Of a stretch of DNA of 64,000 nucleotides, positions 7,283 to 35,377 are shown piece by piece. The stretch is from Bacteroidota bacterium (lineage in GTDB: Bacteria > Bacteroidota > Bacteroidia > B-17B0 > Aurantibacillaceae), in assembly GCA_018267655.1 (NCBI GenBank), contig JAFDYB010000034.1:62001-126000 (forward strand), in the 5' to 3' direction. Made by a program: the position numbers and the translations under genes. The notes beneath the pieces were generated by a model. That model searched no databases. It was not told the origin of the DNA and saw only the letters and a list, made by a program, of their open reading frames with translations. Position 1 is the first letter of the stretch; every line of letters begins with the position of its first letter.

Positions 7283-7286
7283 GCAC

Positions 7287-7880: not shown

Positions 7881-8007
7881 TTTTTCTTTCGATAATTTCA
7901 GTTTTATTTAATCGCCTTTAGCCTTGCTATTAAATAAAAATAACAAATTATTATTGTAAGAAAATTTAAAACTTTGCTTGGTAAATATTATATTTGAAAC
8001 TCAAGCC

Positions 8008-8976: not shown

Positions 8977-10277
8977 TGAGCAATAAACACAAAATACAAC
9001 TAAATACTGCTGCGGCTATTGTTATTGCCAATATGATAGGTACAGGCGTTTTTACCAGTTTAGGGTTTCAAGTAATTGGAATTAACAGCCCTTTTGCCAT
9101 ATTAATGTTGTGGGTTGTGGGCGGTTTGCTTTCGCTTTGTGGCGCATTAACTTATGGCGAAATTGGGGCTGCATTTCCGGCAAGTGGCGGTGAGTATAAT
9201 TATCTTTCAAAACTATACCATCCATCGGTAGGTTTTTTGAGTGGCTGGGTTAGTGTTACTGTTGGCTTTGCTGCGCCAATAGCTGCAGCTTCAGTTGCGC
9301 TAGGCATGTATGTATCAAAAATTTATCCCGAAGTAAATGCTACTTTATTAGCCCTAAGCGTAATTATAATTATTACAACTATACATTCAATTACATTAAA
9401 GGCCGGGGCAGCTTTTCAAAGAGTGTTTACATTAATTAAAATTATTTGCATTGTTATGTTTGTTGGCTTTGGTTTATTCCACAAACCCCAACACCACATT
9501 TCGCTTTTAAATACGCAGGGTGCTTTTACTAACATTTTTTCATCGGCCTTTGCCGGCGCTTTAATATATGTAACATACGCATACAGCGGCTGGAATGCTG
9601 CGGCATACATTACCGGTGAAATGGAAAACCCAAAGCGCAATCTTCCAAGGGCTTTATTATTAGGAACAATTACAGTCATGATTATTTACACGGTTTTAAA
9701 CGCTATATTTTTATACTCGGTTCCAATTGATGAATTAAAAGGCGTAGTTGAAGTAGGTTATTTAAGCGCTAATAAAATTTTTGGAGTTCAGTTAGGAAAA
9801 TTTATGAGCTTAGTAATTGCTGTATTATTAATTTCAACTATTTCAGCGATGATACTTACCGGACCAAGGGTAATGCAAAGTATGGGTAATGATATTAGAG
9901 GATTAAAGTTTTTTTCGATTACCAATAAAAGTAAAGTGCCTTATGTAGCTATCATTTTTCAATCGTTAATTTCAATTATATTGGTGCTTACCTCTTCGTT
10001 TGACTCGCTCATTACCTATGTGGGCTTTACATTAAATTTATTTACTTTACTTACCGTTGCCGGTATTTTTATAGTTCGTACAAAGTTTAAACACATTAAA
10101 ACGGGCTACCGCACATTTCTATATCCAATTACACCTTTATTTTTCATTTCTATTTTATTGTGGATAATGTTTGATATAATTTCAACTCGAACTAAAGAAT
10201 CTATGTTGGGTTTTGCAACGGTATTAATTGGCCTTGTGTTTTATTTTTTAACGCGAAAAAAAAATGAAAATATCTAA
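8976..10277 (+). CDS. APC-superfamily amino acid permease
   Basis: 433 aa, about 12 hydrophobic segments. The N-terminal helix carries the APC signature IANMIGTGVFTSLGFQ, and the GEIGAAFPASGGEYNYLSK segment is typical of the family (unwound TM1 and TM2-3 region). Substrate cannot be fixed; LAT-like amino acid transporters are the nearest in pattern. It starts on the last base of the M23 stop (TAATG) and overlaps pfkA by 14 nt. Confidence 0.88.
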   Translation: MSNKHKIQLNTAAAIVIANMIGTGVFTSLGFQVIGINSPFAILMLWVVGGLLSLCGALTYGEIGAAFPASGGEYNYLSKLYHPSVGFLSGWVSVTVGFAAPIAAASVALGMYVSKIYPEVNATLLALSVIIIITTIHSITLKAGAAFQRVFTLIKIICIVMFVGFGLFHKPQHHISLLNTQGAFTNIFSSAFAGALIYVTYAYSGWNAAAYITGEMENPKRNLPRALLLGTITVMIIYTVLNAIFLYSVPIDELKGVVEVGYLSANKIFGVQLGKFMSLVIAVLLISTISAMILTGPRVMQSMGNDIRGLKFFSITNKSKVPYVAIIFQSLISIILVLTSSFDSLITYVGFTLNLFTLLTVAGIFIVRTKFKHIKTGYRTFLYPITPLFFISILLWIMFDIISTRTKESMLGFATVLIGLVFYFLTRKKNENI

Positions 10278-11238
10278 AATAGCAGTACTTACCAGCGGTG
10301 GCGATTCACCTGGCATGAACGCCTGTTTACGTGCAGTTGTGCGAACAGCGTCTTACCACAACATACAAGTAATTGGGTTTATAAGAGGTTATGAGGGTTT
10401 AGTAGATAATAATTTTATAGAACTAAAGCGCGAGAGTGTTTCGGGTATTATTCAAAAGGGGGGCACTATTCTAAAAACAGCCCGCAGCGAACGATTTAGA
10501 ACCACCGAAGGATTAAACAGCGCAAGCGAAACAATAAAAAAAAACGCTGTAGATGGATTAATTGTGATTGGTGGCGATGGCACATTTAAAGGAGCAATTG
10601 CTTTAAATAAGGTGTGCACTATTCCAATTATAGGTTGTGCAGGTACAATTGATAATGATTTGGTTGGAACAGATTTTACTATTGGGTACGACACAGCCAT
10701 TAATACAGTTGTTGAAGCCGTTGATAAAATTAGAGATACTGCCGAAAGTCATGATAGGGTATTTGTTGTTGAAGTAATGGGGCGCGACGCCGGCTTAATT
10801 GCATTACGAAGTGCAATCGCTTCTGGCGCTGAGGGCTTGCTGGTTCCTGAAATTAAAAACGATGCCAATCAATTAATTGATAAAATTAAAAAATGGCGCT
10901 CGTCTAAAAGCAGTAAAATAATTATAGTAGCAGAGGGCAATGAAAGTGGGGGGGCTTACAAAATAGCTGAATTAATAAAACAACATTGCCCCGAATTTGA
11001 TGTTAGAGTAAGTGTTTTAGGACACATTCAACGTGGCGGAAACCCTACGTGCATGGAGCGTGTTAATGCTAGTTTAATAGGATACAATGCTGTAAACGCA
11101 TTAATAGAAGAGAAAAAAGCAGTAATGGTAGGAATTATAAATAAAAAAATTGTATTTACACCATTTGAAAAAGCAGTTAAGCATCATCAAGCATTAAATC
11201 AAGATATGGTTAATTTAATAGAAATTTTAAGTAGTTAA
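10264..11238 (+). CDS. pfkA: ATP-dependent 6-phosphofructokinase
   Basis: 324 aa, the size of bacterial PfkA. The N-terminal GGDSPGMNACLRAVVR and the phosphate-donor motif GGDGTFKGA are present. In the donor site the residue after GGD is Gly (GGDG, not GGDD), and the catalytic loop reads GTIDNDLVGTDFTIGYDTA, with Gly rather than Lys before TIDND. Both points indicate ATP rather than pyrophosphate as donor. The usual Pro before GTIDND is Ala here (CAGTIDND), a minor oddity. It catalyses fructose-6-phosphate to fructose-1,6-bisphosphate in glycolysis. The start lies within the permease gene end. Confidence 0.95.
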   Translation: MKISKIAVLTSGGDSPGMNACLRAVVRTASYHNIQVIGFIRGYEGLVDNNFIELKRESVSGIIQKGGTILKTARSERFRTTEGLNSASETIKKNAVDGLIVIGGDGTFKGAIALNKVCTIPIIGCAGTIDNDLVGTDFTIGYDTAINTVVEAVDKIRDTAESHDRVFVVEVMGRDAGLIALRSAIASGAEGLLVPEIKNDANQLIDKIKKWRSSKSSKIIIVAEGNESGGAYKIAELIKQHCPEFDVRVSVLGHIQRGGNPTCMERVNASLIGYNAVNALIEEKKAVMVGIINKKIVFTPFEKAVKHHQALNQDMVNLIEILSS

Positions 11239-11240
11239 AA

Positions 11241-13640
11241 ATGCAAAAAACACACTTAATTTTAGTGCACTATATTCTGTGTATTTTTCTTAATTTTTAC
11301 AAGGCACAAAACTCGCACTTTTCGGTAATAGATTCTGCCGTTTTTATACGTAATTTTTCTAATAAACATTTTTCCTTAGGTAAAATTGATGTGAAGCCAG
11401 ATTCTACAGTTTGTGCAGTATTAGACTCAGCTTTTGTTTACGGGTTAAACTATGTACTAAATCCAAACGACTTTAAACAATCAGGAAATTATGAACTTGT
11501 TATCACATCGTTATTTCAGTCGCAAGCAGATAATATTTCTGATTTAATTTTTTGTTATCAAATAGATAAAGAAAACAAAAATGTTTATTGGCAAGGCATA
11601 GATGTAAATAAAAAAAGTATAAAATTAGGCAGTACGTTTAAATTTGCGGACACATTAAAAATTCCTAAAAAATTTATTTCAAAAAATTATACAGTAAAAT
11701 TTTACTTTTGGCTAAACACGAAACGTAATGTTATTCATTTTTTAAAATACAAACTCAATTTTAATAAAATATCCGTACAGAAAGAATTTTTATTACCCGA
11801 GTTTGATAGTACATCTTTTCAATCTATATCTTACAGCAATGGCTTAAACTACGACTCTATACAAAAAACACTATTTATTGCAAATGATAAAAAGAAATGT
11901 ATAACTAAATCAATATTTTTACTTTTAGAAGCCGAAAACGTAAATCAAAAAAACATTGTTTCTAAAACACTTCAATTTAACGAACAAAATAAATATGGAC
12001 AAAAATATTACGAGGCCGAAAATGAATACTTTAAAGCATTAGTTTTTCATACGAGTAATAGTTTAAAAAAGGGAAAATTTAATATTAAAATTAAATTTAA
12101 TCGTAAACTAAAAATTAAGCGACTTGCACTAGTTATGGAAATGAGTAATAAGCCTAAAACACTCTGCAATCAAAACCGAAAACTTAGCAATGATTTTTCC
12201 GATGATTTATATAGTTTAAATAAACAAGGTTTTTTGTTTGGCAATAATGGCGATTTTATAGTATATCACACACCTCAACTTTCTTCAATGCAATATTTTT
12301 CAAAAAAAAATTATATAGTGTATAATTTAGATTATTATTTAGATCACCTAATGCTTAATTTCCCGCTTAAAGAAAATGCAAATAATTTTAAAATTGATAA
12401 ATCAAAAACCGAAGTGGATATTAACGACACAATAAATGGAGCGTTTGATTATTTTATTAATACGCAAACAACTACCATTCCACGCTTTATGAAAAATCCT
12501 TATGGGTTTTTGAGTACATTTGTTTTTACCGAACACGCCGATTTTTCTGATATTCGTTTGCATAGGGCAACCTATTTTGGCAACGAAAAAATTACAGAAG
12601 CCGCTAAAGCTACCGGCGGTTTTGTGAAATGGGAAATACCCGTTACAAAAAGTATATTTTATAATAATCCTGAAAAGATAAATAACAATCAGTTTAATGG
12701 AGCCTTTAAATCAGAAATCGCTAATATGTCATTACCCGAATTTAAGTATTTTATTAATCAACTGCATCAATTAAACTATGATATATGTTTACACACTCCT
12801 GAGGAAAATACTACTACCACACAAAACATAAACGAAGCATTGACCTATTTTAAAACCAATTTCAATTCAAAATGCTGGATAGACCATGGGTATAATAATA
12901 AGCTAAAAAACAATCGTGAAGATATTGTGTGTGACGGAGCCAATAAAAATTCGGAATTTTTTATGCTTAATAAATGGGAGCAGCATGGGGTTAAGTATTT
13001 TTGGAATTGTTTTTTTGAAGATACCGACATTTTTATTCCGTATAATTTTAATTTATTTAAAAACCCATATTTGGGTTATGCTAACCTTTTGCCCACGCCT
13101 GATTTTTGGCAACACAAAAATATTTCAGATAAAATTTGGCTTTGGCCTACAAATCAATTATTATTTATATATAATCCAACTATGTGGGCCTACACATTTA
13201 GCGAAACTAATTTAAATGATTTTTATGATAATTGGGACGTTTTAATAAGCCATTGTTATACCGCAAGAGTTGACTCTAACTCATGCTTTTATACTTATGA
13301 TTCTATTAAACAAGCATATATTGTGCACCCTGAGTTAGATAAGGTTTTAAAAAAACTATCAGAGTATAAAAACAAAAAATTAATTAATGTTACTACCATA
13401 AATGATTTTTTAGAATATAACATAAATCTTCAAAATATTAAATACACTGTTGTAGGAAAAAATTATATTCAGCTAAAAAACAACAATAACACCACAATTA
13501 AAGGATTAAGCATGGCACTTCATACTCAGCGCCCTCCCATTGTTTTAAATAAAAATATAAAGTTTAAAAAAGTAGAGGGAGGTGATGTTATTTTTTGGTT
13601 TGATTTATTACCCAATGAAAGCGTAGAAATTAAATGGTAA
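11241..13640 (+). CDS. Large secreted protein of unknown function, possible deacetylase-like C-terminal half
   Basis: 799 aa with a signal peptide (MQKTHLILVHYILCIFLNFYKAQ). Residues up to about 400 are beta-rich and Lys/Asn-rich without a recognisable domain. The C-terminal half (about 420-760) contains blocks reminiscent of a polysaccharide-deacetylase (NodB-like) barrel: STFVFTEHADFSD, ICLHTPEEN and KCWIDHGYNN, with acidic/His residues spaced as in such enzymes. The canonical NodB motifs are not exact, so this is only a hint. It lies 2 nt after pfkA and overlaps the following lipoprotein gene by 7 nt, so the two envelope proteins are likely made together. Confidence 0.6.
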   Translation: MQKTHLILVHYILCIFLNFYKAQNSHFSVIDSAVFIRNFSNKHFSLGKIDVKPDSTVCAVLDSAFVYGLNYVLNPNDFKQSGNYELVITSLFQSQADNISDLIFCYQIDKENKNVYWQGIDVNKKSIKLGSTFKFADTLKIPKKFISKNYTVKFYFWLNTKRNVIHFLKYKLNFNKISVQKEFLLPEFDSTSFQSISYSNGLNYDSIQKTLFIANDKKKCITKSIFLLLEAENVNQKNIVSKTLQFNEQNKYGQKYYEAENEYFKALVFHTSNSLKKGKFNIKIKFNRKLKIKRLALVMEMSNKPKTLCNQNRKLSNDFSDDLYSLNKQGFLFGNNGDFIVYHTPQLSSMQYFSKKNYIVYNLDYYLDHLMLNFPLKENANNFKIDKSKTEVDINDTINGAFDYFINTQTTTIPRFMKNPYGFLSTFVFTEHADFSDIRLHRATYFGNEKITEAAKATGGFVKWEIPVTKSIFYNNPEKINNNQFNGAFKSEIANMSLPEFKYFINQLHQLNYDICLHTPEENTTTTQNINEALTYFKTNFNSKCWIDHGYNNKLKNNREDIVCDGANKNSEFFMLNKWEQHGVKYFWNCFFEDTDIFIPYNFNLFKNPYLGYANLLPTPDFWQHKNISDKIWLWPTNQLLFIYNPTMWAYTFSETNLNDFYDNWDVLISHCYTARVDSNSCFYTYDSIKQAYIVHPELDKVLKKLSEYKNKKLINVTTINDFLEYNINLQNIKYTVVGKNYIQLKNNNNTTIKGLSMALHTQRPPIVLNKNIKFKKVEGGDVIFWFDLLPNESVEIKW

Positions 13641-20311: not shown

Positions 20312-21355
20312 TTATTTTTTTTCTTTTGCAACCACAACATACACTGGAAAATGGTCGCTGTAACCACCCGTATATGAGCCACCACTATAAGTTCTAAATG
20401 GATAGCCTTTAAAATTTCCAAAATCGCTTTTTAAAAATGTTTTATTAAAAATTCTAACTGCATAAAATTCCCAGCCCTTATAATCACCTGTTACCCAGTG
20501 TTTATTTAAAATAATTTGATCAAATAAATTCCAACTATCCTGCCAAGCTAAAGTTCCTGTTCCTTCTTTATATAAATTTTCCATTGGGTTAAAAAACTTC
20601 CCTTCCTCAGGTTTTGCATAGTCGGCATAAGTTTTAATTACCTCTTTTACGCAAAAATTGGTGGGGTCATCGTTTAAATCTCCCATAATTACAATACGTG
20701 CATTTGGGTTTATGGCTACAACACTATCTGCAATATGTCTTGCTACTTTTGCTGCTGCGTTTCTATTAGGCCGGCTAGCAAGCTCTCCGCCTCTTCTACT
20801 TGGCCAATGGTTTACTAAAACAGTAACCTGATCGCCATATAAATTTCCGCTAACAACAAGTATATCGCGTGTTTTATATGCAGAATCGGTAACAAGCGTA
20901 ACGTGATATGCAAGCGATTTTGTAACTTTAAAATAATTAGGGTTATAAATAAAAGATGGATCAACACCTCTGGCATCAGGGCCTTCTATATGTACAATTT
21001 TATAATTTCTACTTTTTAGTTTCTTATTAGCTACAATATCTTTAACAACGTTTATATTTTCTACTTCGCATAAACCCATAATTGCCAAGCCATCTGGCGT
21101 AACGTCGGTTGCCATTTTACTAATTACATCGGCTAAATGGTCTATTTTTGTCCAATACCGCGGGCCATTCCAGGCATTTTTACCGGCAGGCGTAAACTCT
21201 TCATCGTTTTTCCATTGATCATTGAGTGTATCATATAAATTTTCAACGTTCCAAAAACCAATAACGCTCATAAAGTATTGCTTGTTTTTGTTTAGTTTTT
21301 GTGCTTTTATACTAAAAAAAGATAAAAAAAAGCAAATTATTAGTAGTTTCTTCAT
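20312..21355 (-). CDS. Secreted endonuclease/exonuclease/phosphatase-family (EEP) protein
   Basis: 347 aa with a signal peptide (SFFSIKA-QKL). EEP-fold catalytic motifs are complete: GFWNVENLYD (Asn), GLCEVEN (metal-binding Glu), VNHWPSRRGG (His), IVIMGDLNDDP (Asp/Asn), an LFDQIIL strand and the final GYSDHFPV (Asp-His). Such proteins hydrolyse phosphodiester or phosphomonoester bonds, most often in nucleic acids. It is divergent from a TonB receptor operon with two DUF5689 lipoproteins across a 133-bp gap, so it likely degrades a polymer outside the inner membrane whose products the receptor imports. The actual substrate is inferred. Confidence 0.88.
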   Translation of the reverse strand: MKKLLIICFFLSFFSIKAQKLNKNKQYFMSVIGFWNVENLYDTLNDQWKNDEEFTPAGKNAWNGPRYWTKIDHLADVISKMATDVTPDGLAIMGLCEVENINVVKDIVANKKLKSRNYKIVHIEGPDARGVDPSFIYNPNYFKVTKSLAYHVTLVTDSAYKTRDILVVSGNLYGDQVTVLVNHWPSRRGGELASRPNRNAAAKVARHIADSVVAINPNARIVIMGDLNDDPTNFCVKEVIKTYADYAKPEEGKFFNPMENLYKEGTGTLAWQDSWNLFDQIILNKHWVTGDYKGWEFYAVRIFNKTFLKSDFGNFKGYPFRTYSGGSYTGGYSDHFPVYVVVAKEKK

Positions 21356-21488
21356 TCTTTAATTCGAAAAAGCGAAATTAACCAAATAATATTTATTTTG
21401 AAATATTATATTTTTGTTAACATTTTTAACGAAATTTGTATAAATTAAGCAAAATAAGTTATTTTAGCAATCCAATTTTAAAACAAAA

Positions 21489-24029
21489 ATGAAAAAATAT
21501 TTATTATTCTTTTTTTTCTTTTCAATTACCATAACTCATTCTCAAATTAATCAAATAGATACTTCACAAGTAATTGATACCGAAAAAGACACTTTACAAT
21601 CGCAATTCAATGTACCTATTTATAGTACTAGTGGTGCTGATGCCGAATCTGGGTTAGATAATCAAGATGCCTCGGGTTTATTGCAATCGAGTAAAGATGT
21701 GTTTACTCAATTTGCAAGCTTTCAGTTTAGTCAATCGCGTTACCGTATGCGTGGCTACACACAAGAAAATCAGCAAATATTAATGAACGGTGTAAATATT
21801 AAAAGCTTTGAAAATGGCACAAGCAATTGGAGCAGTTGGGGCGGATTAAATGACGTAACTCGCTATACCGAAGTCCGCTTTGGCAATCAGCCCAGCAGAG
21901 TTTCATTTTCGGGGCCAGGAGGTTATACTAACATTGATTCAAGAGCCTCTTCATTCAGAAAAGGTACGCGTATTTCTTACGCAAGCGCTAACCGTATCTT
22001 TTCGAACCGCTTAATGGCAACATACAGTAGCGGCTTAATGCAAAACGGCTGGGCTTTTACTATTAGTGCAAGCACCCGCCAGGGTGACCAAGTTTATGTT
22101 CCTGGCACTTATATAAATGCCAATTCTTTTTACGCCGCTGTTGATAAGCGCTGGAGCGATAAACACATTACATCATTAGTTGCTTTTTTTGCTCCCACCG
22201 AACAAGGTAGAGCAACAGCAGCAGTTGCTGAAACATTTAGCTTAACAGGGAATAATTATTACAATCCTCTTTGGGGCTATCAAAACGGGCAGGTAAAAAG
22301 CGCTTCAGTTGCAAAGCGCCAACGCCCTAATGTTATTTTATCTCATATTATTAATATTAGTCACGATGAAAAGCTTACTGTTTCAGGTTTTTTTAATTGG
22401 GGCATCAACAGTGTTTCTAACCTTAATTGGAATAATTCACAAAATCCTCGTCCCGATTACTATCGCTATTTACCTAGTTATTACAACAGTATTGGCGATT
22501 ATGCAAATGCCTCATATTACACCAACCAGTGGCAAAACACAAGCGCAAACCAAAATGAAGTGATGACACCGCAAATTAATTTTGATTATATGGTGCAACA
22601 AAATAGAGCTAACTTATATACCGATCCCATTACAGGCCTTACCGGCAACCGATCGCGATACATCATCGAAAATCGTGTTGAAGATTTAAAAAATGGCGGC
22701 TTAACTCTAATTTATAACAAGCGCATTAAAAACTCTTTTATTAGCGGCGGCTTAAATGCAAATAATTACGTTACTAGGCGCTATAAAATTTTAAACGACT
22801 TGCTTGGCGGCGATTTTTGGATAGATGTTGATCAATTTGCACAAAACTTAGGTGTTGACCCTAGCTATCAACAAAACGACATTTCTAAACCTTATAATCA
22901 AATTAGAGTTGGCGACAAATTTGGCTACGACTATTCCACAACTATTAGACACGGCGAGCTATGGGGGCAATATGAATACAGTATTTCAAAATTTGATGCC
23001 TATGCCGGATTTTCATTTTCACAAACCCAAATTTTTAGAACCGGATATGTTGCTAACGGAAAATTTCCAACCGATAGTAAAGGTGATGGCACCGCAATGA
23101 ATTATAGTAATTACGGCTTAAAAGGAGGTTTAACCTACAAACTAAATGGACGAAATTTTTTTGTGGCCAACGGCTCTTTTATAACTCGCCCACCTGATGT
23201 TTCAAATATATACGTATCGCCACGAACACGCCAAGATATTGTTAACGGAGGTGTGCCAAGTGTAAACATATTAAGCGGCGACATTAGTTATTTAGCAAAA
23301 TTTCCAACATTTAAAGCGCGTGTAACGTATTATAATACACAAACTAATAATCAAGTATGGTACCGTATGTTTTGGAGCGATCAATACAACAATAATGTAA
23401 ATTATATTATGACAGGTGTTAACCAAAACAATCAAGGAATTGAAATTGGCTTAGAAAAAACATTATTTGTTTCGCATGTTATACAAGCGTGTTTTGGTGC
23501 TGGTAATTACGTGTACACAGATAGGCCTATTGCACAAGCCTGGCAAGACAACAACAACACACAACTTTTTACCAACCGAACCGTATATATAAAAAATTAT
23601 AAAATTGGAGGAACTCCTCAAACCGTTGCCGGACTAAGTTACCGCTACAACGATAAACGTCGCTGGTTTGTTGGTATTGCCGGTAGTTTTTTTGCCAATA
23701 ATTATATTGAACCAAACCCCGACAGAAGAACCGCCGAAGGAACTGCAAAATACGCCTCATCTGACCCTGAGTATGCTACAATTGTAAATCAAACTAAACT
23801 GGGCGATTATTTCTTATTGAATGGAAATGCGGGTTACAGTTTTAGAATATTAAAAAAATATTCTGTAGGAATTAACTTAACCGTTAATAATTTATTAAAT
23901 AATAAAAATATTCGCATTTGGGGCTTTGAGCAAATGCGATGGGACCAAGGAAACATTAATCAATTTGCCAATAAATACATGTATATGCCCGGAACTACTT
24001 ATATGGCCAGCATTAACTTAACATTTTAA
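21489..24029 (+). CDS. TonB-dependent outer-membrane receptor
   Basis: 846 aa: signal peptide (ITITHS-QIN), then a plug domain (about 50-170, with YRMRGYTQENQQILMNGV and RFGNQPSRVSFSGPGGYTNID), then a long transmembrane beta-barrel ending in an aromatic strand, TYMASINLTF. It is shorter than SusC proteins and lacks the N-terminal carboxypeptidase-regulatory-like domain. It leads an operon with two DUF5689 lipoproteins (4 and 13 nt gaps). Energised by TonB-ExbBD, it should import a ligand captured by those lipoproteins. The ligand is not evident from the receptor alone. Confidence 0.9.
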   Translation: MKKYLLFFFFFSITITHSQINQIDTSQVIDTEKDTLQSQFNVPIYSTSGADAESGLDNQDASGLLQSSKDVFTQFASFQFSQSRYRMRGYTQENQQILMNGVNIKSFENGTSNWSSWGGLNDVTRYTEVRFGNQPSRVSFSGPGGYTNIDSRASSFRKGTRISYASANRIFSNRLMATYSSGLMQNGWAFTISASTRQGDQVYVPGTYINANSFYAAVDKRWSDKHITSLVAFFAPTEQGRATAAVAETFSLTGNNYYNPLWGYQNGQVKSASVAKRQRPNVILSHIINISHDEKLTVSGFFNWGINSVSNLNWNNSQNPRPDYYRYLPSYYNSIGDYANASYYTNQWQNTSANQNEVMTPQINFDYMVQQNRANLYTDPITGLTGNRSRYIIENRVEDLKNGGLTLIYNKRIKNSFISGGLNANNYVTRRYKILNDLLGGDFWIDVDQFAQNLGVDPSYQQNDISKPYNQIRVGDKFGYDYSTTIRHGELWGQYEYSISKFDAYAGFSFSQTQIFRTGYVANGKFPTDSKGDGTAMNYSNYGLKGGLTYKLNGRNFFVANGSFITRPPDVSNIYVSPRTRQDIVNGGVPSVNILSGDISYLAKFPTFKARVTYYNTQTNNQVWYRMFWSDQYNNNVNYIMTGVNQNNQGIEIGLEKTLFVSHVIQACFGAGNYVYTDRPIAQAWQDNNNTQLFTNRTVYIKNYKIGGTPQTVAGLSYRYNDKRRWFVGIAGSFFANNYIEPNPDRRTAEGTAKYASSDPEYATIVNQTKLGDYFLLNGNAGYSFRILKKYSVGINLTVNNLLNNKNIRIWGFEQMRWDQGNINQFANKYMYMPGTTYMASINLTF

Positions 24030-24033
24030 TACC

Positions 24034-25296
24034 ATGAAAAATTTATTATTATATACATTAGTTGTTTTAACGCTTGTGTTTTCTTGTAAGAAGCCTGATA
24101 CAACCCCTACGCGTAATTTAGGTGCAGGAGTAACATATCGCGCTACTGATTTAAAAAGTATCGCCACCTCAACAACCGGAAATAACACAACACCTTTTCC
24201 CGATAACACTTATTATGTTGGAACAGTAATTGCTGACGAGAGTAGCGGAAATTTTTATAAAGAATTATATTTAAGAGATGGTACCGGTGCATTACATGTT
24301 ACATTTAAAGCCTCAAAAAACGGCTATTTTATTGGCGATTCGGTGCGATTAAATTTAGGGGGTTATTTTGCAATCTTAAACGCAAGTAATGGATTACTCG
24401 AAGTTGACTCGGTTGATTTTGACAAATCAATGATTAGATTAGGTAAAGGAGTTATTGCTCAACCCATTACACTTACTAACGATAGCTTTAATTTTAAAAC
24501 TTATGCCTCCCATTACTATGGGCAATTAGTAAAATTAAATAATGTTTATTTTTCAGCCGGCGATGCTGGTCAATTGTGGTCAGATGCCATTGGAGGAAAC
24601 TCTGTTAATAGAAATTTACAAGACTGTTGGTCTATTTCAATGCCGGTGCGCACCAGTAGTTATGCCAAGTTTGCAACACAAACCACACCGGTTGGGCAAG
24701 GCTCCATTATTGGCATATTAGCAAGTTATAACGGTACAACACAATTAACCATTCGTAACACAGGAGAAGTAAACATGAATAACCCCATTACTTGTTCAAA
24801 CATTTTATTTAAAAATTTTAGCGATTTAAGTTTAGCATCTGGTGGTTGGTCGCAAATGAATGTGTTGGGTGCAAGCTCTTGGGCCGCAAGCAATCAATAC
24901 CCAGGCCCTGGGATTCCGGCCTACGCTAAAATTTCGGGCTACATTAGTGGTAATACTAACTGCGAAAATTGGCTATTGTCGCCACAGTTAAATTTAACAA
25001 GCACAAATAACCCTATTTTATCCTTTCAAACAGCTGCAAAATATGTAGGGGATACCATGGCTGTTTTTGCTTCAACTAATTACACGCCATCAACCAATCC
25101 AAATTCAGCCACATGGACTCAATTAAACGCAATCATTTCACCAAACGGGTCTAGTTTTGTTTGGACGTACAGTGGCTTATTATCGTTAGCTCCGTTTAAA
25201 CAACCAAGTGTAACAATAGGTTTTAGATATAAATCTTCAACCACTAAAGGCGCCACTACTTACGAAGTATCAAATATTTTAATTAAAGAATTGTAA
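24034..25296 (+). CDS. DUF5689 surface lipoprotein with C-terminal jelly-roll-like domain (paralog 1)
   Basis: 420 aa lipoprotein (LTLVFSCKKPD, lipidated Cys near 18). The DUF5689 domain (about 30-240) has an OB-like pattern: GTVIADESSGNFYKELYLRD, GALHVTF and GDSVRLNLGGYFAILN. The C-terminal region (about 255-420; FKNFSDLSLASGGWSQ, WLLSPQLNLTSTNNPILSF, FRYKSS) matches the choice-of-anchor-J / cleaved-adhesin type beta sandwich. It follows the TonB receptor by 4 nt and is probably its surface lid or ligand-capture subunit, like SusD in SusCD but unrelated in fold. Confidence 0.85.
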   Translation: MKNLLLYTLVVLTLVFSCKKPDTTPTRNLGAGVTYRATDLKSIATSTTGNNTTPFPDNTYYVGTVIADESSGNFYKELYLRDGTGALHVTFKASKNGYFIGDSVRLNLGGYFAILNASNGLLEVDSVDFDKSMIRLGKGVIAQPITLTNDSFNFKTYASHYYGQLVKLNNVYFSAGDAGQLWSDAIGGNSVNRNLQDCWSISMPVRTSSYAKFATQTTPVGQGSIIGILASYNGTTQLTIRNTGEVNMNNPITCSNILFKNFSDLSLASGGWSQMNVLGASSWAASNQYPGPGIPAYAKISGYISGNTNCENWLLSPQLNLTSTNNPILSFQTAAKYVGDTMAVFASTNYTPSTNPNSATWTQLNAIISPNGSSFVWTYSGLLSLAPFKQPSVTIGFRYKSSTTKGATTYEVSNILIKEL

Positions 25297-25309
25297 ATTA
25301 TCATTACGT

Positions 25310-26620
25310 ATGAAAAAAATTTCTTTTTCACTTTTATTACTAATTAACTTAACCGTTGTTTTATCGTGTAGAAAAAAAGCAGATTTACCTCCAAACAATG
25401 CAATTCCGGCAGAATGCGGACGAACAAACATTGCTCGCTTAAGAGCGCAATATCAATTATTCGCTTCAAATACTGGCACTATGACAACTAATTATCGCTT
25501 ACAAAACGACACCAATCTTTATTGCGTAATTACAGCCGACGAATCAAGCGGAAATTTATATAAAACCGTTTATTTAAGAGATGCGTTTGGTTCAATTAAA
25601 ATGAATTTAACTAGTAGTGGTGGCTTAAACATAGGTGATAGTATTAGAATTAATTTAAATCATGCTATACTTAATTCATACGCAACCTCAGTTCAACTCG
25701 ACTCAATTGATATTTTAAAACGTGTAGTAAAAATAAATACGGGAAATAAAATAAATCCTGTAAAAGTTACGTATGGTCAAATTTTTACAACAATAACAAA
25801 CCCAATTACAACGCTCGATTCAAAATTAGTTTTAATTGACTCCGTTCAATTTGCAGTAGGAAGTAAAAACCAAACATTTGCCGATTGGGCCGGAAAAGCA
25901 ACATACAACCGAGATTTATGTATTACAGATACATCTAGTGTGCTACTACCTATCCGAACATCGGGTTATAGTTATTTTGCAACTAATACAACGCCTTGTG
26001 GTAAAGGCTCAATTGTTTGTATTGTGTCGCAATATAAAGGATCTCCTCAACTAATACTGCGTAACCCTTCTGATTTAAACATGTCCGGAAACAGTGCTTT
26101 TACTTATAACAGTTGCCCATATTTAGCTAAAGATTTTAACGACCAAAAACTGCTTAGTGGCGGCTGGTCGGTTTATAACAGATTGAGTAATTTAACAACA
26201 TGGGCTATTGGCACTAAAGGCGGTAATTACGCAACTGTAAGCAACTACACTGCCAGCGTTAACTATACTGCCGATACTTGGCTTATTTCGCCCTATATAA
26301 ACATTACCGGAAGCACTAACCCCAATTTATCGTTTTTTTCTGTATGTAGATACAATGGAACCATCCCTTTAAAAGTATATGTGTTGTCAAATTACATTGC
26401 CGGCAATGATCCTATTTCAGCAATCAACGATTCGCTAAGCCCCACTATTGTAAACAATCAACCCGCATGGACACCTTGGGTTTTTTCAAGTAAAATTCCT
26501 TTAAATAGTTACAAGTCACTTCCTAACCTTTCAATTGCATTTCGTTACCAGGGCAGCGCAACATTAGGGGGTGCCACCTGGCAAATTGATAATATTGGTA
26601 TTAGCGAACCATTGCCATAA
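25310..26620 (+). CDS. DUF5689 surface lipoprotein with C-terminal jelly-roll-like domain (paralog 2)
   Basis: 436 aa, same architecture as its upstream neighbour: lipobox VVLSCRKK, DUF5689 block (CVITADESSGNLYKTVYLRD, IGDSIRINLNHAILN), then the anchor-J-like sandwich (KDFNDQKLLSGGWSVYNR, WLISPYINITGSTNPNLSF, IAFRYQGSATLGGATWQID). The two paralogs share frame-level block order but are well diverged, so the duplication is not recent. The gap to the previous gene is 13 nt, consistent with one transcript. Two different capture proteins may widen or order ligand binding. Confidence 0.85.
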   Translation: MKKISFSLLLLINLTVVLSCRKKADLPPNNAIPAECGRTNIARLRAQYQLFASNTGTMTTNYRLQNDTNLYCVITADESSGNLYKTVYLRDAFGSIKMNLTSSGGLNIGDSIRINLNHAILNSYATSVQLDSIDILKRVVKINTGNKINPVKVTYGQIFTTITNPITTLDSKLVLIDSVQFAVGSKNQTFADWAGKATYNRDLCITDTSSVLLPIRTSGYSYFATNTTPCGKGSIVCIVSQYKGSPQLILRNPSDLNMSGNSAFTYNSCPYLAKDFNDQKLLSGGWSVYNRLSNLTTWAIGTKGGNYATVSNYTASVNYTADTWLISPYINITGSTNPNLSFFSVCRYNGTIPLKVYVLSNYIAGNDPISAINDSLSPTIVNNQPAWTPWVFSSKIPLNSYKSLPNLSIAFRYQGSATLGGATWQIDNIGISEPLP

Positions 26621-26786: not shown

Positions 26787-29700
26787 ATGAAAAAGCAAGT
26801 ATCCTATTTTATCGTTTTTTTTCTGTTCAATTTTACTTTTTTAAATGCCCAATTTTCAGTACCGGGAGCTTGTGGCAACAACGGCTTTAAACAAAGTGGG
26901 TCAAACTCTACTTATAACGGTAATAGCTCTATACAAACTAGCTACACCGGGCAAGCTTGCGGATTAAACTATGTTCAAGTTAGTCACCCCCTGCATCAAC
27001 GTAGTTTTGGAGGCATGACTCCTGCTGTTGGATTGACACAACCAGCTGCATACGCAGTAAGTGGCATTCCGCCATGTGCCATTATTTTAAAAGCTTTTGT
27101 TTATGCGTCGGGTTCAGGCTCTGGCAATCCTGCATTTAGCGTTACAATTAAAAATCCACTTAATGTTAGTAATAGTTTTCCGGCTACCGTTACCGGAACA
27201 GGGATTGATAAATGTTGGAGTTACTCAAACAGTTGGTCGGCTAGAGCTGATGTAACAAGTAATATTAGTGGTAACGGTACCTATATGATTTCTGGCTGCC
27301 CTGTTTCAGTTGGCTCTTACGACACAGATGGGGCAACATTAATTATCATTTATAGTGACCCAACGCAACCTTGGACGGGTAGCATGTTTATTGCCGATGG
27401 CTGTAACTCTATTCAAGGCGGGTCAATGAACAATAACGTTACGGGATTTACAGTATGCGGCCCCACTACTTTAAGCCAACATTTTATGATAATTGGAGAC
27501 TTACAACAGATACAGGCAACTGCACTTAGTTTTAACAGTGGCTCAAGTAATTTTTCGTATCCGGCCGCATCTCAAAGCGTGTGGGATTTCATTTCATTTA
27601 CCGGCGCACCTTTTACATCAGGCCAAACAAGTGCTAATTATGGTGTAAATAACTCGAGTGACTGTTACGCTTTAAATGTAGCGGGAGGTTATTGGAGAAC
27701 CGCATGCAATACCTGTCCAATTCCATCAGGCGGCTTAACTGTAACGGCGGTTGTAACGCCTAGTTGTCCCACATCATCTGCTTCCGTTTCAAGTGTTTTA
27801 GGAGGCACAGCGCCCTATACTTACACTTGGCTTCCAGGTGGCCAAACTACACAAAATGCCACAAATTTAAGCCCCGGAACATATACGGTTAATGTAAAAG
27901 ATGCCACGGGTTGTAACACAGGAAGTGCCGTTGTAAACGTTACCACTATAAGTGCAAACACTATTACAGCAAATTCGGCTTCGTATTGCAGCGGCGGAAG
28001 CGCTAATTTAACTGCCACCGGCGCAAGTACATTTACTTGGAGTCCTGGCACCGGATTAAATACTACTATTGGCGCTAATGTTGTAGCAAATCCGGCAAGT
28101 ACAACAATTTACACAATATCCTCTACAAATAGCTTGGGCTGCACAAGCACTGCTACAACACAAGTTACGGTAAACCTCAACCCTACTCTAACAATAAGCA
28201 CATCAACTGTTTGTGTAGGGCAACCATTAAACGTTAATTTAAGTACAAATGCGGCTTCAGTGCAGTGGAGTGGACCATCTGCATACAGTTCTTCAAGTGC
28301 TAGCAATATTATTTCTGGAGCTCAATTATCTAATAGTGGCTCTTATTCTGCTACAGTTACAAGTGTTGCAGGATGTACTGCAAGCTCAAGTGGATTAAAC
28401 TCTGTACTTTCAGTTCCGGTACCAAGTATAAGCAGTAATTCACCTGTATGTGCAAATGGCAATTTAAACTTAAATGCAAGCGGAGGTGTTACTTATAATT
28501 GGTCGGGACCAAATTCATTTAACAGCACTTCTCAATCTGCAACTATAACCAATGTAACTACTGCGGCAAGTGGCGTTTACACATTAACAGCTTTTGCAGG
28601 AATTTGTAGTGCGTCAACTACAGCAAATATTTTAATTAATTCTTTACCGGTTCCTACAGCCTCAAACAATGGGCCGATATGTGCAAGCCAAGCCGCAAAC
28701 TTTACTGCAACAGGCGGAACAAGTTATGTTTGGACAGGACCTTCGAGTTTTGGTTCAATAAGTCAAAACCCATCTATCTCATCATCATCAGTTACAAATA
28801 CAGGCACATACACTGTAACAGTTACTGATGTAAATGGATGTGTATCAAGCGCAACAACAGCAATAGTTGTTAATCCATTACCTAATCCATCAGCTACAGG
28901 CGCAACAGTGTGTATAGGTCAAAACTTTTCAATAAATGCTGCAGGCGGAGCTACTTATAATTGGGCGGGGCCAAATAGTTTTACTTCAGCTAGTGCTTCT
29001 AATTCATTTTCGAATGCAGCTTCTAATTTAAACGGAGCATATTCGGTTACGGTAACAAGTGCTCAGGGATGTAATAATTATACAGTTGCAAACGTTTCTG
29101 TATTGCCATTACCTAATCCCATAATTAGCAGTAACTCGCCAGTGTGCGTTAATGGCAATTTAAATTTAACCGCAAGTGGTGGTGTTACTTATATGTGGGT
29201 GGGACCTAATGGCTTTAACAGCACTTTACAAAACCCAACCATAAATAACGTAACAATGTCTGCAAATGGTAATTACACGTTAATTGCTTCAACCGGGGCT
29301 TGTACAGCCCAAACAAGCTCAAGTATCACAATTAATCCATTGCCAATTATAACTACAAGTAATTCGGGGCCTGTGTGCGAAACAAAATCAATAACTTTAA
29401 GCGCAAGCGGTGGCACAGCTTATGCTTGGTCGGGGCCAAGTGGTTTTAACTCAACCTCTCAAAATCCCATAATTACCTCTTCCAATATAAATCAAACCGG
29501 AGTTTATACTGTTATAGTTACAAATTCGTTTAATTGTGTTTCTTCATCAACACTATCTTTAGTTATAAATGCAAACCCTATTGCAATAGTAACAACAAAC
29601 ACAGTATGCTTAGGAAGTCCTTTAACACTAACAGTTAGCGGTGGGTCTTCTTATAATTGGTTTGGCCCTTCCGGATTTGTGAGTACAAGCGCTAATCCAT

Positions 29701-30821
29701 TAATACCAAGCGTTACAGCAGCTAGCGCAGGCTTTTACTCGGTTGTAGTTACAAGCGCTAATACATGCACTAGTATTTCGGGATCAAATGTTGGTTATTA
29801 TAATTTACCTATAATTACAGCTACAAACTCCGGTGCCGCTTGCTTAGGAAATGCTGTTACATTAAGTGCTGCCGGAGGGAATATTTATTCTTGGGCCGGG
29901 CCATACAACTTTGTGTCCAACCAAGCCATTACAGGATTTACTGCAAATAGCTTGAGTTATAATGGCACTTACACTGTAACAGCAGCCGACCAAAATGGCT
30001 GTTCGGGTAAAGCTATTACACAAGTTACTATTTTCCCTTTGCCTAATGGCTCTTTAAGCTCAAGCTCAAACAATAATTGTGTGCCGTTTTGCACCAACTT
30101 ACATTTAATTTCAAGCTCCGCAAATAATGCGTCTATTACAAATGTACAATGGTATTCGCCTAATGGTGGTGTACTGAATGGAACAACGGTTAACCAGTGC
30201 TTTGGTGCACCCGGATCATTTATTTACTCCGCTACCATGACCGATGCAAATGGCTGTTCAAATAATGGCACATTTACAATTAACGCCTACCCAAAACCTA
30301 TAGCTAATTTTACATGGTCACCTGAAAAGCCTTTAGAAAAAACAGGTGTAGCGCAATTTACTGATGGATCGAATGGAGGTACAATGGTGGGCTGGAGCTG
30401 GTATTTTAACGACAATACACTGTTTAGCAATCAACAAAACCCTAGTTATATTTTTCAAGACCCGGGCGCATACCCAATTGTTTTAGTTGTAAAAAATCAA
30501 TACGGTTGTTCCGATACAACTATAAAAATAGTAAATGTACAAGAGGATTATGGCTTGTACATACCTAACGCGTTTACACCTAACGACGATGGGTTGAACG
30601 ATATTTTTGAACCAGAAGGTTATGGTATTAGAGATTATAAACTTTATGTTTTTGACCGTTGGGGAGAAATGCTTTTTTATTCAAACAGCTTTAAATCAGG
30701 CTGGGATGGCTCGTTTAATGGACAACGCTGTAAAAACGATGTGTATGTGTGGAAAATTATTTTAACTAATTCATTTGGTAAAATAATAGAAAAAACAGGG
30801 CATGTTACCTTAATGAAATAA
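26787..30821 (+). CDS. Giant Ig-repeat adhesin with PKD and T9SS type B sorting domains
   Basis: 1344 aa. Signal peptide (FTFLNA-QFS), an N-terminal Cys-rich beta domain (about 25-305), one SprB-like repeat (about 315-390), then nine Ig-like repeats of 77-80 residues and one divergent repeat (about 391-1130). The repeat pattern is PVC-(7)-L-ASGG-x-TY-W-GPN-F-S ... G-Y-V-V-GC. A PKD domain follows (FTWSPEKPLEKTG ... WSWYFND ... FQDPGAYPIVLVV), then the type B sorting domain (LYIPNAFTPNDDGLND ... FDRWGEMLF ... WDGSFNGQ ... KTGHVTLMK). The Cys pair in each repeat may form disulfides. Surface adhesion or motility is the likely role. It may use a PorP/SprF partner such as 4712-5668. Confidence 0.88.
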   Translation: MKKQVSYFIVFFLFNFTFLNAQFSVPGACGNNGFKQSGSNSTYNGNSSIQTSYTGQACGLNYVQVSHPLHQRSFGGMTPAVGLTQPAAYAVSGIPPCAIILKAFVYASGSGSGNPAFSVTIKNPLNVSNSFPATVTGTGIDKCWSYSNSWSARADVTSNISGNGTYMISGCPVSVGSYDTDGATLIIIYSDPTQPWTGSMFIADGCNSIQGGSMNNNVTGFTVCGPTTLSQHFMIIGDLQQIQATALSFNSGSSNFSYPAASQSVWDFISFTGAPFTSGQTSANYGVNNSSDCYALNVAGGYWRTACNTCPIPSGGLTVTAVVTPSCPTSSASVSSVLGGTAPYTYTWLPGGQTTQNATNLSPGTYTVNVKDATGCNTGSAVVNVTTISANTITANSASYCSGGSANLTATGASTFTWSPGTGLNTTIGANVVANPASTTIYTISSTNSLGCTSTATTQVTVNLNPTLTISTSTVCVGQPLNVNLSTNAASVQWSGPSAYSSSSASNIISGAQLSNSGSYSATVTSVAGCTASSSGLNSVLSVPVPSISSNSPVCANGNLNLNASGGVTYNWSGPNSFNSTSQSATITNVTTAASGVYTLTAFAGICSASTTANILINSLPVPTASNNGPICASQAANFTATGGTSYVWTGPSSFGSISQNPSISSSSVTNTGTYTVTVTDVNGCVSSATTAIVVNPLPNPSATGATVCIGQNFSINAAGGATYNWAGPNSFTSASASNSFSNAASNLNGAYSVTVTSAQGCNNYTVANVSVLPLPNPIISSNSPVCVNGNLNLTASGGVTYMWVGPNGFNSTLQNPTINNVTMSANGNYTLIASTGACTAQTSSSITINPLPIITTSNSGPVCETKSITLSASGGTAYAWSGPSGFNSTSQNPIITSSNINQTGVYTVIVTNSFNCVSSSTLSLVINANPIAIVTTNTVCLGSPLTLTVSGGSSYNWFGPSGFVSTSANPLIPSVTAASAGFYSVVVTSANTCTSISGSNVGYYNLPIITATNSGAACLGNAVTLSAAGGNIYSWAGPYNFVSNQAITGFTANSLSYNGTYTVTAADQNGCSGKAITQVTIFPLPNGSLSSSSNNNCVPFCTNLHLISSSANNASITNVQWYSPNGGVLNGTTVNQCFGAPGSFIYSATMTDANGCSNNGTFTINAYPKPIANFTWSPEKPLEKTGVAQFTDGSNGGTMVGWSWYFNDNTLFSNQQNPSYIFQDPGAYPIVLVVKNQYGCSDTTIKIVNVQEDYGLYIPNAFTPNDDGLNDIFEPEGYGIRDYKLYVFDRWGEMLFYSNSFKSGWDGSFNGQRCKNDVYVWKIILTNSFGKIIEKTGHVTLMK

Positions 30822-32468: not shown

Positions 32469-33995
32469 TCAACTTTTAAACTTAAAGCCAATTGTTGCTG
32501 AAATTGTAGTAGCGTAATAATTAATTTTTGCCTTAGTAGTAAGATTTTCAAATAAGTAATAGTCTTCTGTTGTGTACATGTACGACGCAGCTAAATCAAC
32601 GTAAAAATTATTTATGGTTTTTATGCCTATACCAGCACTTATAGTATTACGCACTGCGTTTTGCATATTGCTAATTCCAAAGGGGCTACCTTGCATATTA
32701 TATCCTGCTCGTAAATAAATTGAATTTAAAACATATTCCAAACCTACTCTTAAATTATTTCCCATGGCATACTTACTTGCAATTACCGCGTTAACTCCGG
32801 TAAAAGAGCCATCACTGCTCCCTAAACTCATGTTTTTATAATTCGTAGCCTCATAATCTATACCTAATATGGCTCTTTTGCCAAGCACTAAAGCCGCTGA
32901 TAAACCAAATCTTGCAGGCGTTTTAATTGTATAAGAGTAGGTTCCACCATTTTGCTGTGGATATTGTCCTTGTTGAGTTTGACTGTTTGAATTAGAAAAA
33001 TTAACCGCCATGGAGTACTGGTAGTTATCTGTTAAAGTAAATTTAGTTGGCGTATGAAAATATGCTCCTATTCGTAAAAACTCATTCACTCTAATAGTTC
33101 CACCTAATTTTAAATTAATTCCTCCGCCACTGGTTGTAAAATATTGTGTGTAACTTGAGTTTCTATAAGCAAGTAAATTTGGATAAACAAACGGCAATGG
33201 TTCAATATAATTTGATGTAAATCCTGTTGTACCTGTCATAGCTATTTGCATTGAGTCTTTGCTGTTCCACTCTTGGTGAACGGTAGTTGATGAGTATTGA
33301 ACCCTGGGAAAACCAACACTTAATCCGAAATAAATTTTATCTTTAAAACTATAGGCATACGACAAATCTAGGTCATTCACTTTGCCCGTTGTTGAAATTG
33401 TTCTGCTTTGTCTTATAACTCTACCGGTGTCCGAAAACGAAAAATAGCGACCACTTAAACTGTCATAATCCAATAAGTAGCAATTATATCCTAAACCCTC
33501 ATACGATGGATCTAAGTTGTTTTTATTTTTTTGCGCTGACAGCAGCATGTCAGTAGCGATACTGCTTTTAGTTAAACTGTTTAATGTAACTGTATTAGTT
33601 AAGTTTTGAACTTTGCTAATTGTAAATGCAATACAATGCCTGCTTTCAGGATCGTTTTGAGTTTGCCACGAGCGCACTAAGCCAAAATTATTAAAATCAA
33701 ATTTTGCACCTGAAGAAGGTGTGTTATACCCATTTACGTTTGCGTTGCTTCCATAAAATTTAAGGCAGCCCGAATAGGTAATGTCGCCATACTTATATAA
33801 ACCCAAGCCCGAAGGATTGTATGCTGCGCAACTTGCATCTGCACCAATTGCTCCAAAAGCTCCGCCCATAGCAACAAATCTACTTGTCCCGTTTACGCCA
33901 AAGCGCGAATAACGTAATGCATCAACGTCATTTTGAGATTTACATACAAAAGCTATTATTATAAAAATTGGGGCTAACTTATTTTTAAAATGCAT
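32469..33995 (-). CDS. OmpP1/FadL-type outer-membrane transport protein
   Basis: 508 aa from the ATG at 33995 (MHFKNKLAPIFIIIAFVCKSQ), giving a good signal peptide; a longer frame starting at 34139 would run into the upstream gene and adds a low-complexity stretch, so it is rejected. The mature N-terminus carries the FadL pattern VAMGGAFGAIGADASCAAYNPSGLG (hatch region), followed by a beta-barrel ending IGFKFKS. FadL proteins pass hydrophobic compounds across the outer membrane. The upstream Gly/Tyr-rich lipoprotein gene ends 10 nt before it, so the two form an operon. Confidence 0.85.
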   Translation of the reverse strand: MHFKNKLAPIFIIIAFVCKSQNDVDALRYSRFGVNGTSRFVAMGGAFGAIGADASCAAYNPSGLGLYKYGDITYSGCLKFYGSNANVNGYNTPSSGAKFDFNNFGLVRSWQTQNDPESRHCIAFTISKVQNLTNTVTLNSLTKSSIATDMLLSAQKNKNNLDPSYEGLGYNCYLLDYDSLSGRYFSFSDTGRVIRQSRTISTTGKVNDLDLSYAYSFKDKIYFGLSVGFPRVQYSSTTVHQEWNSKDSMQIAMTGTTGFTSNYIEPLPFVYPNLLAYRNSSYTQYFTTSGGGINLKLGGTIRVNEFLRIGAYFHTPTKFTLTDNYQYSMAVNFSNSNSQTQQGQYPQQNGGTYSYTIKTPARFGLSAALVLGKRAILGIDYEATNYKNMSLGSSDGSFTGVNAVIASKYAMGNNLRVGLEYVLNSIYLRAGYNMQGSPFGISNMQNAVRNTISAGIGIKTINNFYVDLAASYMYTTEDYYLFENLTTKAKINYYATTISATIGFKFKS

Positions 33996-34005
33996 AAAGT
34001 AGAGA

Positions 34006-35322
34006 TTATCTTCTTCTAAATCCGCCACCACCACCGCCGCCAAAACTACCACCACCAAAACCGCCACCACGATTAAAACTTTCGTTATTCGTGTTAAATG
34101 ATGGCGAAGGTTCAAATGAACGAACCGGCTTAGATTCAATTTGAGGCGATTGATTAAAACTTCTTGGGGTTGATTCTACATTTCCTGAGTTGTTATTTGA
34201 ACGCGGCCAAAATCCTCCGTTATTGTTTGCATTATACTCACGTGGTGTATTATCTATCTTGTTTTCATTGATATTTGAGTTATTTATACTTGCATTTCTA
34301 GGCATTCCGTTATTGTTATAAGCCGGGCGCCCACCTGAATTATAATAGCCCGAGTTTTCTGCCTGCACCATATTGTTATTAAACTGCTTATGCTGAACTT
34401 CAACAAAGCGCGGAGTAGCTTCTTGTTTTACGGCCATTTGATTGAAAAACTTTTCTCTGGCATTACTTTCTAAATCATAAGGCACAGCCATTCCAGCAGT
34501 TGTGCTTCTGCCTCCATTGTTTCCTCCAAAAGATCCTCTTGGTCCGTAATGGCTATAGCCGCTATTTGGATCATAACTATTATAATACCCCCAGTTACCG
34601 TATGAATTATAAAATGAACCACCATAAGGCGAATAACCATAGCCACCCATGCCCATACCCATATAGGGATAACCATAACCCATACTATTGTAGCCATAAC
34701 CCATACTCATATAAGGGCCACCACCATAACCATAGCCCATACCGTAACCGCCACCATAACCATAAGGTGAACCATAACCCATGCCGTAACCGCTACCATA
34801 ACCATAAGGCGAACCATAGCCCATACCGTAACCATAAGGTGAACCGTAGCCCATACCATAACCGCCACCATAACCATACATATTGCTTATGCCCGAACCG
34901 CACATCGCAAATTGATTGCTTGGCATCCACGCGTAGGTATTATAAATACTGTTTCCATACATTGCCGGATTTTGATTGTAATAATAGGAGTTGGTATAAT
35001 AATTATCATAGTAACCAGCTCCATTTATTGGACCTTGAAAGCGGCGTAATCTTGAAGCATATTGATAATCGTAGTAATCATCTTTATTGTATTGAGGGTC
35101 TTTGTAATAAGGATTTGCAGCATCTTTTGCCTGTTGTGCAGCTAAAGCTTTTGCTTTATGCATTGAATCGGTGCGTGCCACATTTATGGCCGCTATTCGA
35201 GCCGCTCTGTGTTCTTGTGCGGGATCTGCGTAAGCATCATCGTATTGTGAAGTTAATTGCGCTAGTTTACAAGATGTAAACGTTAAACTCGCAATCGCAA
35301 ATATCAGCATGTATTTTTTCAT
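34006..35322 (-). CDS. Gly/Tyr-rich low-complexity lipoprotein
   Basis: 438 aa from ATG 35322 (a TTG at 35331 is also possible). The signal ends LTFTSCKLA, so the protein should be lipidated. A charged helical region (about 30-80) precedes a region extremely rich in Gly, Tyr and Met (about 140-270) built from GYGMGYGSPYGYG-type repeats, then an Asn-rich stretch and a C-terminus of GGGFGGGSFGGGGG ending in RRR. No enzyme domain is visible. The composition recalls self-assembling or phase-separating proteins. It precedes a FadL porin gene and is divergent from proS; I recall similar Gly/Tyr-rich genes next to FadL genes in other Bacteroidota but cannot verify it here. Confidence 0.75.
   Translation of the reverse strand: MKKYMLIFAIASLTFTSCKLAQLTSQYDDAYADPAQEHRAARIAAINVARTDSMHKAKALAAQQAKDAANPYYKDPQYNKDDYYDYQYASRLRRFQGPINGAGYYDNYYTNSYYYNQNPAMYGNSIYNTYAWMPSNQFAMCGSGISNMYGYGGGYGMGYGSPYGYGMGYGSPYGYGSGYGMGYGSPYGYGGGYGMGYGYGGGPYMSMGYGYNSMGYGYPYMGMGMGGYGYSPYGGSFYNSYGNWGYYNSYDPNSGYSHYGPRGSFGGNNGGRSTTAGMAVPYDLESNAREKFFNQMAVKQEATPRFVEVQHKQFNNNMVQAENSGYYNSGGRPAYNNNGMPRNASINNSNINENKIDNTPREYNANNNGGFWPRSNNNSGNVESTPRSFNQSPQIESKPVRSFEPSPSFNTNNESFNRGGGFGGGSFGGGGGGGFRRR
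34700..34881. repeat. Imperfect tandem repeats encoding GYGMGYGSPYGYG units
   Basis: Short GC-moderate units containing ACCATAACC and CCATAGCCCATACC recur in tandem within the Gly/Tyr-rich lipoprotein gene, in lengths that are multiples of three, giving 9- to 14-residue protein repeats. Such arrays can gain or lose units by slippage without shifting the frame, so length variation between strains is expected. Confidence 0.7.
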
Positions 35323-35377
35323 AGCCAACAATTTAATTTTCTTATGTAAAGATACAAATAATCACTTAATTTATTTT

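Follow-up and report, generated by a model that had tools for sequence, protein, structure and literature searches.

A Bacteroidota locus related to the Riemerella natural-transformation genes as a candidate outer-membrane end of a DNA-uptake machine

A transformation locus in Riemerella and its counterpart in the window

The closest described system is the natural-transformation locus of the duck bacterium Riemerella anatipestifer, where a transposon screen identified RA0C_RS04915, a carboxypeptidase-regulatory-like outer-membrane protein, and RA0C_RS04920, a DUF5689 protein (PMC8459023). Markerless deletion of either gene abolished transformation, bringing it below detection, and homologues of the receptor were found only in Flavobacteriaceae (PMC8459023). 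In that study RS04910 appears only as the upstream gene whose transcription was unaffected, and the protein that degrades the duplex in the uptake model is left unidentified (PMC8459023). Two of the three R. anatipestifer TonB genes, tonBA and tonBB, also contribute to transformation; tonBA does not do so through iron, as its mutant has no iron defect in the medium used (PMC8383284). In R. columbina, EDTA blocks transformation and Ca, Mg, Zn or Mn restores it, and F. johnsoniae carries homologues of both the receptor and the lipoprotein, yet could not be transformed under the conditions used (PMC7965970).

We analyzed a 64,000-nucleotide stretch of a Bacteroidota contig (the window), in which a sequence-only reading had proposed a gene for a secreted EEP-family enzyme divergent from a TonB-dependent receptor (TBDR) gene that is followed by two DUF5689 lipoprotein genes. 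All four open reading frames are present in this layout. The EEP gene (20312-21355, minus strand) encodes a putative secreted EEP-superfamily enzyme of family PF19580, assigned from its motifs, AlphaFold2 fold, synteny and N-terminus. A 133-bp divergent intergenic region (21356-21488) separates it from the gene for an 846-residue TBDR-family outer-membrane protein (21489-24029, plus strand); this divergent layout is conserved. Lipoprotein a (24034-25296, plus strand) begins after a gap of 4 bp and its tandem paralogue, lipoprotein b (25310-26620, plus strand), after a further 13 bp. Both match DUF5689 and choice-of-anchor J families in Pfam and NCBIfam, and lipoprotein a is the predicted surface ligand-binding partner of the receptor. 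Directly downstream, 26787-30821 (plus strand) encodes a 1344-residue Ig_7/PKD protein with a T9SS type B sorting domain, which is not a conserved member of the module. Elsewhere in the window, the frame at 34500-35279 (plus strand) is probably spurious, lying antisense to the gene for a Gly/Tyr-rich protein (34006-35331, minus strand), and the TTG start of 32469-34139 (minus strand), which overlaps the same gene, probably lies too far upstream.

The window receptor gives a weak Pfam signal (Plug, E=0.012), yet it is homologous over its full length to a large receptor family. It forms a reciprocal best hit with the receptor of one compared genome, G471 (E=4.4e-99 as the sole hit in one direction; E=6.0e-99 in the other, with the next hit at 7.7e-23), and lacks the N-terminal CarboxypepD_reg domain that the G471 and R. 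anatipestifer receptors carry. In G471 the genes run recA-dinB-sdhBAC-comEC-(145 aa)-carboxyltransferase-EEP|TBDR-DUF5689. This order exactly fits the R. anatipestifer locus tags, which advance in steps of five through RS04870 (RecA), RS04895 (ComEC), RS04915 and RS04920, and the domain content agrees with Table 3 of PMC8459023. From gene order, tag spacing and domains we strongly infer that G471 is R. anatipestifer. Given the fit to the tag spacing, its EEP gene would be RA0C_RS04910, and the window EEP gene the likely counterpart of RA0C_RS04910. The R. anatipestifer transposon screen, which was non-saturating, did not recover the EEP gene (PMC8459023). Between window and G471, identity is 41.6% for the EEP proteins, 33% for the receptors, and 30.7% and 26.2% for the two lipoproteins against the one DUF5689 protein encoded in G471.

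We defined a Riemerella-type module by an orthologous receptor, a DUF5689 and choice-of-anchor J lipoprotein downstream of it, and the downstream pathway of ComEC, DprA and RecA; the definition also names an HHH protein (RS02645), a DUF1343 protein (RS09020) and ComF. The window genome has the receptor, through the reciprocal best hit, and the lipoprotein, and it encodes ComEC, DprA and RecA, which are near-universal and therefore lend weak support to module membership. A profile search that matched six controls found no secretin in the window genome. The orthology of the window locus rests on the reciprocal best hit and synteny; these sequence comparisons place the locus in the Riemerella natural-transformation module as a distant member.

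Two neighboring features are recorded here as separate observations. In G471, a type II cas9 gene and two ORFs resembling cas1 and cas2 (L102:13491-18932) adjoin the transformation locus, placing a system against foreign DNA beside DNA-uptake genes. In the window, 13 kb from the locus, 39683-41335 (minus strand) encodes a protein resembling type I phosphodiesterases and alkaline phosphatases (PF01663, E=3e-42); in R. anatipestifer, transformation fell ~1000-fold after a transposon insertion in RA0C_RS06070, a gene for an “alkaline phosphatase family protein” (PMC8459023).

Conservation of the gene set across Bacteroidota

Loci for comparison were picked by matches to DUF5689 or to the receptor, independently of EEP. 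Among the matches listed from the sampled Bacteroidota, a DUF5689 lipoprotein follows the receptor in all 135 of 135 homologous loci. The proposed role of DUF5689 proteins as surface partners of the receptor is supported. The sequence-only reading had also predicted that EEP genes would co-occur with DUF5689, and the association is strong: an EEP gene lies divergently upstream of the receptor, within 1 kb, in 117 of 132 testable loci among the matches listed. By group, the divergent EEP gene is found in 13/13 loci of the window genus, 15/17 of Weeksellaceae and the first relatives within the class, and 20/25 of other families, and in 69/77 loci from named genome contigs among the matches listed (Chryseobacterium, Kaistella, Elizabethkingia, Flavobacterium, Polaribacter and others). 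At least 14 families of the class were sampled; 13 have the divergent EEP gene, and in the 14th (L024) an EEP gene lies ~1.4 kb beyond the lipoprotein. With two PF19580 genes in the 3.4 Mb of the window genome, adjacency of an EEP gene by chance is expected in well under 1% of genomes.

The gene set also occurs in Cytophagales and Bacteroidales records, where three loci (L247-L249) are independently rearranged into co-directional clusters. Bacteroides finegoldii has TBDR-DUF5689-EEP, with 12 bp between the last two genes; Aureibacter has TBDR-DUF5689-DUF5689-Endonuclease I-EEP-EEP; and Flammeovirga has EEP-EEP-TBDR-DUF6359/DUF5689/LTD-DUF5689::Endonuclease I. As the same genes are kept in these clusters, the partnership survives rearrangement. 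Overall, gene-order comparison indicates that the arrangement is ancient and supports a single functional unit of EEP enzyme, receptor and lipoproteins. Presence in Weeksellaceae is near-universal (118 of 120 genomes).

Eight loci without an adjacent EEP gene were checked (seven Flavobacterium, one Polaribacter), and all eight genomes carry an EEP homologue elsewhere. We had considered loss of EEP in the seven Flavobacterium loci as a cause of the non-transformability of F. johnsoniae, and rejected it on finding the homologue elsewhere, at 66-69% identity. Marine Flavobacteriaceae loci show one or two extra EEP paralogues (L188, L197, L204, L210, L212, L217) or a second, divergent receptor upstream (L197, L204, L210, L211, L212, L215, L218), possibly a duplicated version of the module. 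A short ORF of ~200 residues lies between receptor and DUF5689 gene in L115 (9427-10008), L183 (2993-3595), L169-L171, L175-L178, L180-L182, L191 and L193; the L183 copy gives a borderline DUF5017 match, and the ORF is probably the DUF5017 gene reported at the same place in F. columnare.

The EEP enzyme and the DUF5689 lipoproteins

The window EEP protein (347 residues) matches PF19580 Exo_endo_phos_3 with E=1.8e-115 and 385.7 bits, against a gathering score of 27. Its catalytic motifs are complete, as the sequence-only reading had claimed: NxEN, ExEN, HWPSRxGG, GDLND and SDHFP show little or no variation across 42 homologues. The AlphaFold2 model (pLDDT 90.9) has 3mpr as its best fold match (Z 24.6, rmsd 3.7, 250 aligned residues) and also matches further EEP enzymes, TDP2 among them; DNase I follows closely (Z 22.3). 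This search scarcely separates nucleases, phosphatases and sphingomyelinases, so the fold is compatible with several kinds of substrate, and the non-nucleases among its matches, mannosyl-6-phosphatase 4c1r and sphingomyelinase, count against reading the protein as a nuclease. At E<=0.1 the window protein does not match the ExeM/NucH family NF033681 (cut-off 300 bits), and its G471 counterpart scores 22.2 bits (E=5.4e-5), under that cut-off. Neither the EEP protein nor the profiles of EEP and DUF5689 matched any sequence in the PDB, and a PHROGs search likewise gave none.

N-termini of signal-peptidase-I type in most of 60 EEP proteins examined, and a Pfam domain search that found no T9SS sorting domain in the window protein, suggest that this enzyme resides in the periplasm. 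Such a location would run counter to cleavage before import, a part of the proposed scheme of capture, cleavage and import that is not established. Family, fold and gene neighbors indicate that the enzyme is probably a periplasmic nuclease or phosphodiesterase.

Lipoproteins a and b match DUF5689 with E=1.5e-39 and 5e-34, are 36.9% identical to each other and both have a lipobox-type cysteine. Pfam places both in DUF5689 and neither in a SusD family, and the receptor has no SusD-family lipoprotein beside it. Against the M949_1556 family lipoprotein model (NF052645) they score 139.7 and 107.3 bits over nearly the full length, under the 475-bit cut-off, the full-length match of lipoprotein a having E=1.2e-40. 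In sequence terms they are homologous to this family and outside the named subfamily, in contrast to the G471 DUF5689 protein, which exceeds the cut-off at 599.3 bits.

In the AlphaFold2 model of lipoprotein a (pLDDT 85.5), residues 251-420 form a C-terminal jelly roll, as had been anticipated from its sequence. The matches listed by the fold search fell on this domain, away from the DUF5689 half (~residues 33-250): 8jiy at Z 18.1 (rmsd 2.5, 164 aligned residues) and Kgp cleaved-adhesin domains at Z 14.9-16.1. For the DUF5689 half we suspect, and do not claim, tandem OB folds, from secondary structure, analogy with ExeM and YhcR (PMC6085458) and a PF18942 match in our B. subtilis control.

An N-terminal cysteine is present in 79 of 79 DUF5689 lipoproteins examined, and in most of them at least two acidic residues stand just after it. 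We take these residues to resemble the Bacteroidota surface-export signal, and together with the cysteine they place the lipoproteins, by prediction, on the cell surface. Flammeovirga has a protein that joins DUF5689 (E=1.6e-56) to Endonuclease I (Endonuclease_1, E=1.6e-86), and such fusions also occur in L039 and L040, with TBDR genes adjoining. These fusions support nucleic acid as the ligand. Together with the transformation defects in Riemerella, they largely uphold the earlier suggestion that the system imports nucleic acid, and make extracellular DNA the likely ligand. L039 itself (5110-11868) combines a T9SS-sorted LTD protein, a TonB receptor, the fusion and a 5'-nucleotidase C-terminal domain, and looks like a separate cluster for extracellular DNA degradation and import.

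A DNA-uptake model, its rivals and its relation to known systems

We favor, with a probability of roughly 0.6, a reading in which the locus, an orthologue of the R. anatipestifer transformation locus, supplies the outer-membrane part of a DNA-uptake machine and the EEP enzyme processes DNA in the periplasm. Among the evidence for it, the Riemerella counterparts of receptor and lipoprotein are essential for transformation. Counting against it are the failure of the transposon screen to recover EEP, the loci that have no EEP gene beside the receptor, the non-transformability of F. johnsoniae, the low identity between window and Riemerella proteins, the non-nucleases that share the EEP fold and the LPS phenotype linked to M949_1556. 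In this model, the DUF5689 lipoproteins would bind DNA at the cell surface and hand it to the receptor, which would carry it into the periplasm with energy from TonB, in place of a pilus and secretin. The periplasmic EEP enzyme would then nick, trim or strand-degrade the incoming DNA ahead of ComEC, perhaps yielding the single strand that ComEC takes, and so would do the work for which the Riemerella model names no protein. Surplus imported DNA may serve as food, a possible second outcome. We infer DNA binding, nuclease activity, the location and role of the EEP enzyme, and competence of the window organism. More tentatively, and with less than even confidence, DUF5689, TBDR and EEP may together constitute a widespread pilus-independent, TonB-powered DNA importer of Bacteroidota in which EEP is the nuclease that makes single strand for ComEC.

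A less likely alternative is that nucleic acid is imported mainly for phosphorus and nucleosides and digested by EEP, with transformation in Riemerella a by-product. Extracellular nucleases are associated with these loci, the 5'-nucleotidase C-terminal domain stands beside the DUF5689-Endonuclease I fusion in L039, and presence in 118 of 120 Weeksellaceae genomes fits a housekeeping nutrient role. That the module is essential for transformation argues against it, since intact DNA of recombination length must pass. Phosphate removal speaks on both sides, raising transformation of R. columbina ~two-fold (PMC7965970) and lowering that of R. anatipestifer (PMC8383284), and the phosphate-food role suggested by the sequence-only reading accordingly meets mixed evidence.

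It is improbable that the receptor-lipoprotein pair instead maintains the envelope, in O-antigen or LPS display, with an indirect transformation defect and EEP as a lipid or sugar phosphatase. A mutant in M949_1556, which gives the DUF5689 subfamily its name, is reported to have an LPS-antigen phenotype in R. anatipestifer (PMC4976936); as the G471 genome has one DUF5689 gene, whose product exceeds the family cut-off, M949_1556 and the G471 gene are probably identical. EEP-fold BT3783 is a mannosyl-6-phosphatase, and the fold search shows a likeness between the C-terminal jelly roll and carbohydrate-binding modules. Against these points stand the nuclease fusions of DUF5689 and the fall of transformation below detection in both markerless mutants, to which an LPS change could be secondary. 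Capture, cleavage and import of some other phosphate polymer (RNA, teichoic acid or phospholipid head groups), for which the broader phrasing of the sequence-only reading leaves room, is very improbable. In its favor, RNA deadenylases, sphingomyelinases and phosphatases share the EEP fold; against it, the sole functional data on orthologues concern DNA, and where the locus is rearranged the accompanying enzymes are Endonuclease I and EEP.

The DNA-uptake reading bears on an open question, the passage of DNA across the outer membrane of transformable Bacteroidota. In P. gingivalis this transport “remains unclear”, with no T2SS or T4SS identified and the conjugation pilus uninvolved (PMC11532111). 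Two proteins essential in Riemerella are now tied to a conserved, nuclease-like third gene, EEP (by our assignment RA0C_RS04910), as a candidate for the missing part of the import machine, and the module would help to predict which Bacteroidota acquire genes by transformation. The novelty seems to lie in EEP as a conserved partner, in the fusions of DUF5689 with Endonuclease I and in the occurrence of the module outside Flavobacteriaceae; a search of largely open-access literature found no subsequent study of a TonB-dependent importer of DNA in Bacteroidota.

Among known systems, R. anatipestifer RA0C_RS04915-RS04920 shares with the window the gene order, the reciprocal-best-hit receptor, a DUF5689/choice-of-anchor J lipoprotein directly downstream and a divergent EEP gene upstream, which was not recognized there as part of the system (PMC8459023). 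The window differs in its two tandem lipoproteins, its receptor without CarboxypepD_reg, and comEC and recA on other contigs. ExeM/NucH nucleases (PMC6085458) share the EEP catalytic domain and join it in one chain to LTD and an OB-fold region, and related clusters likewise hold LTD and DUF5689 beside EEP or Endonuclease I; the window, in contrast, has separate proteins and a receptor, and its EEP is short, with no ExeM-family match. SusCD glycan importers share the TBDR family and an adjacent surface lipoprotein, whereas the window has DUF5689 with choice-of-anchor J in place of a SusD-like protein, and a divergent EEP gene. Uptake by Type IV pilus and PilQ secretin would feed the same ComEC-DprA-RecA pathway; in the window genome, where no secretin was detected, passage across the outer membrane would instead use the TonB-dependent receptor.
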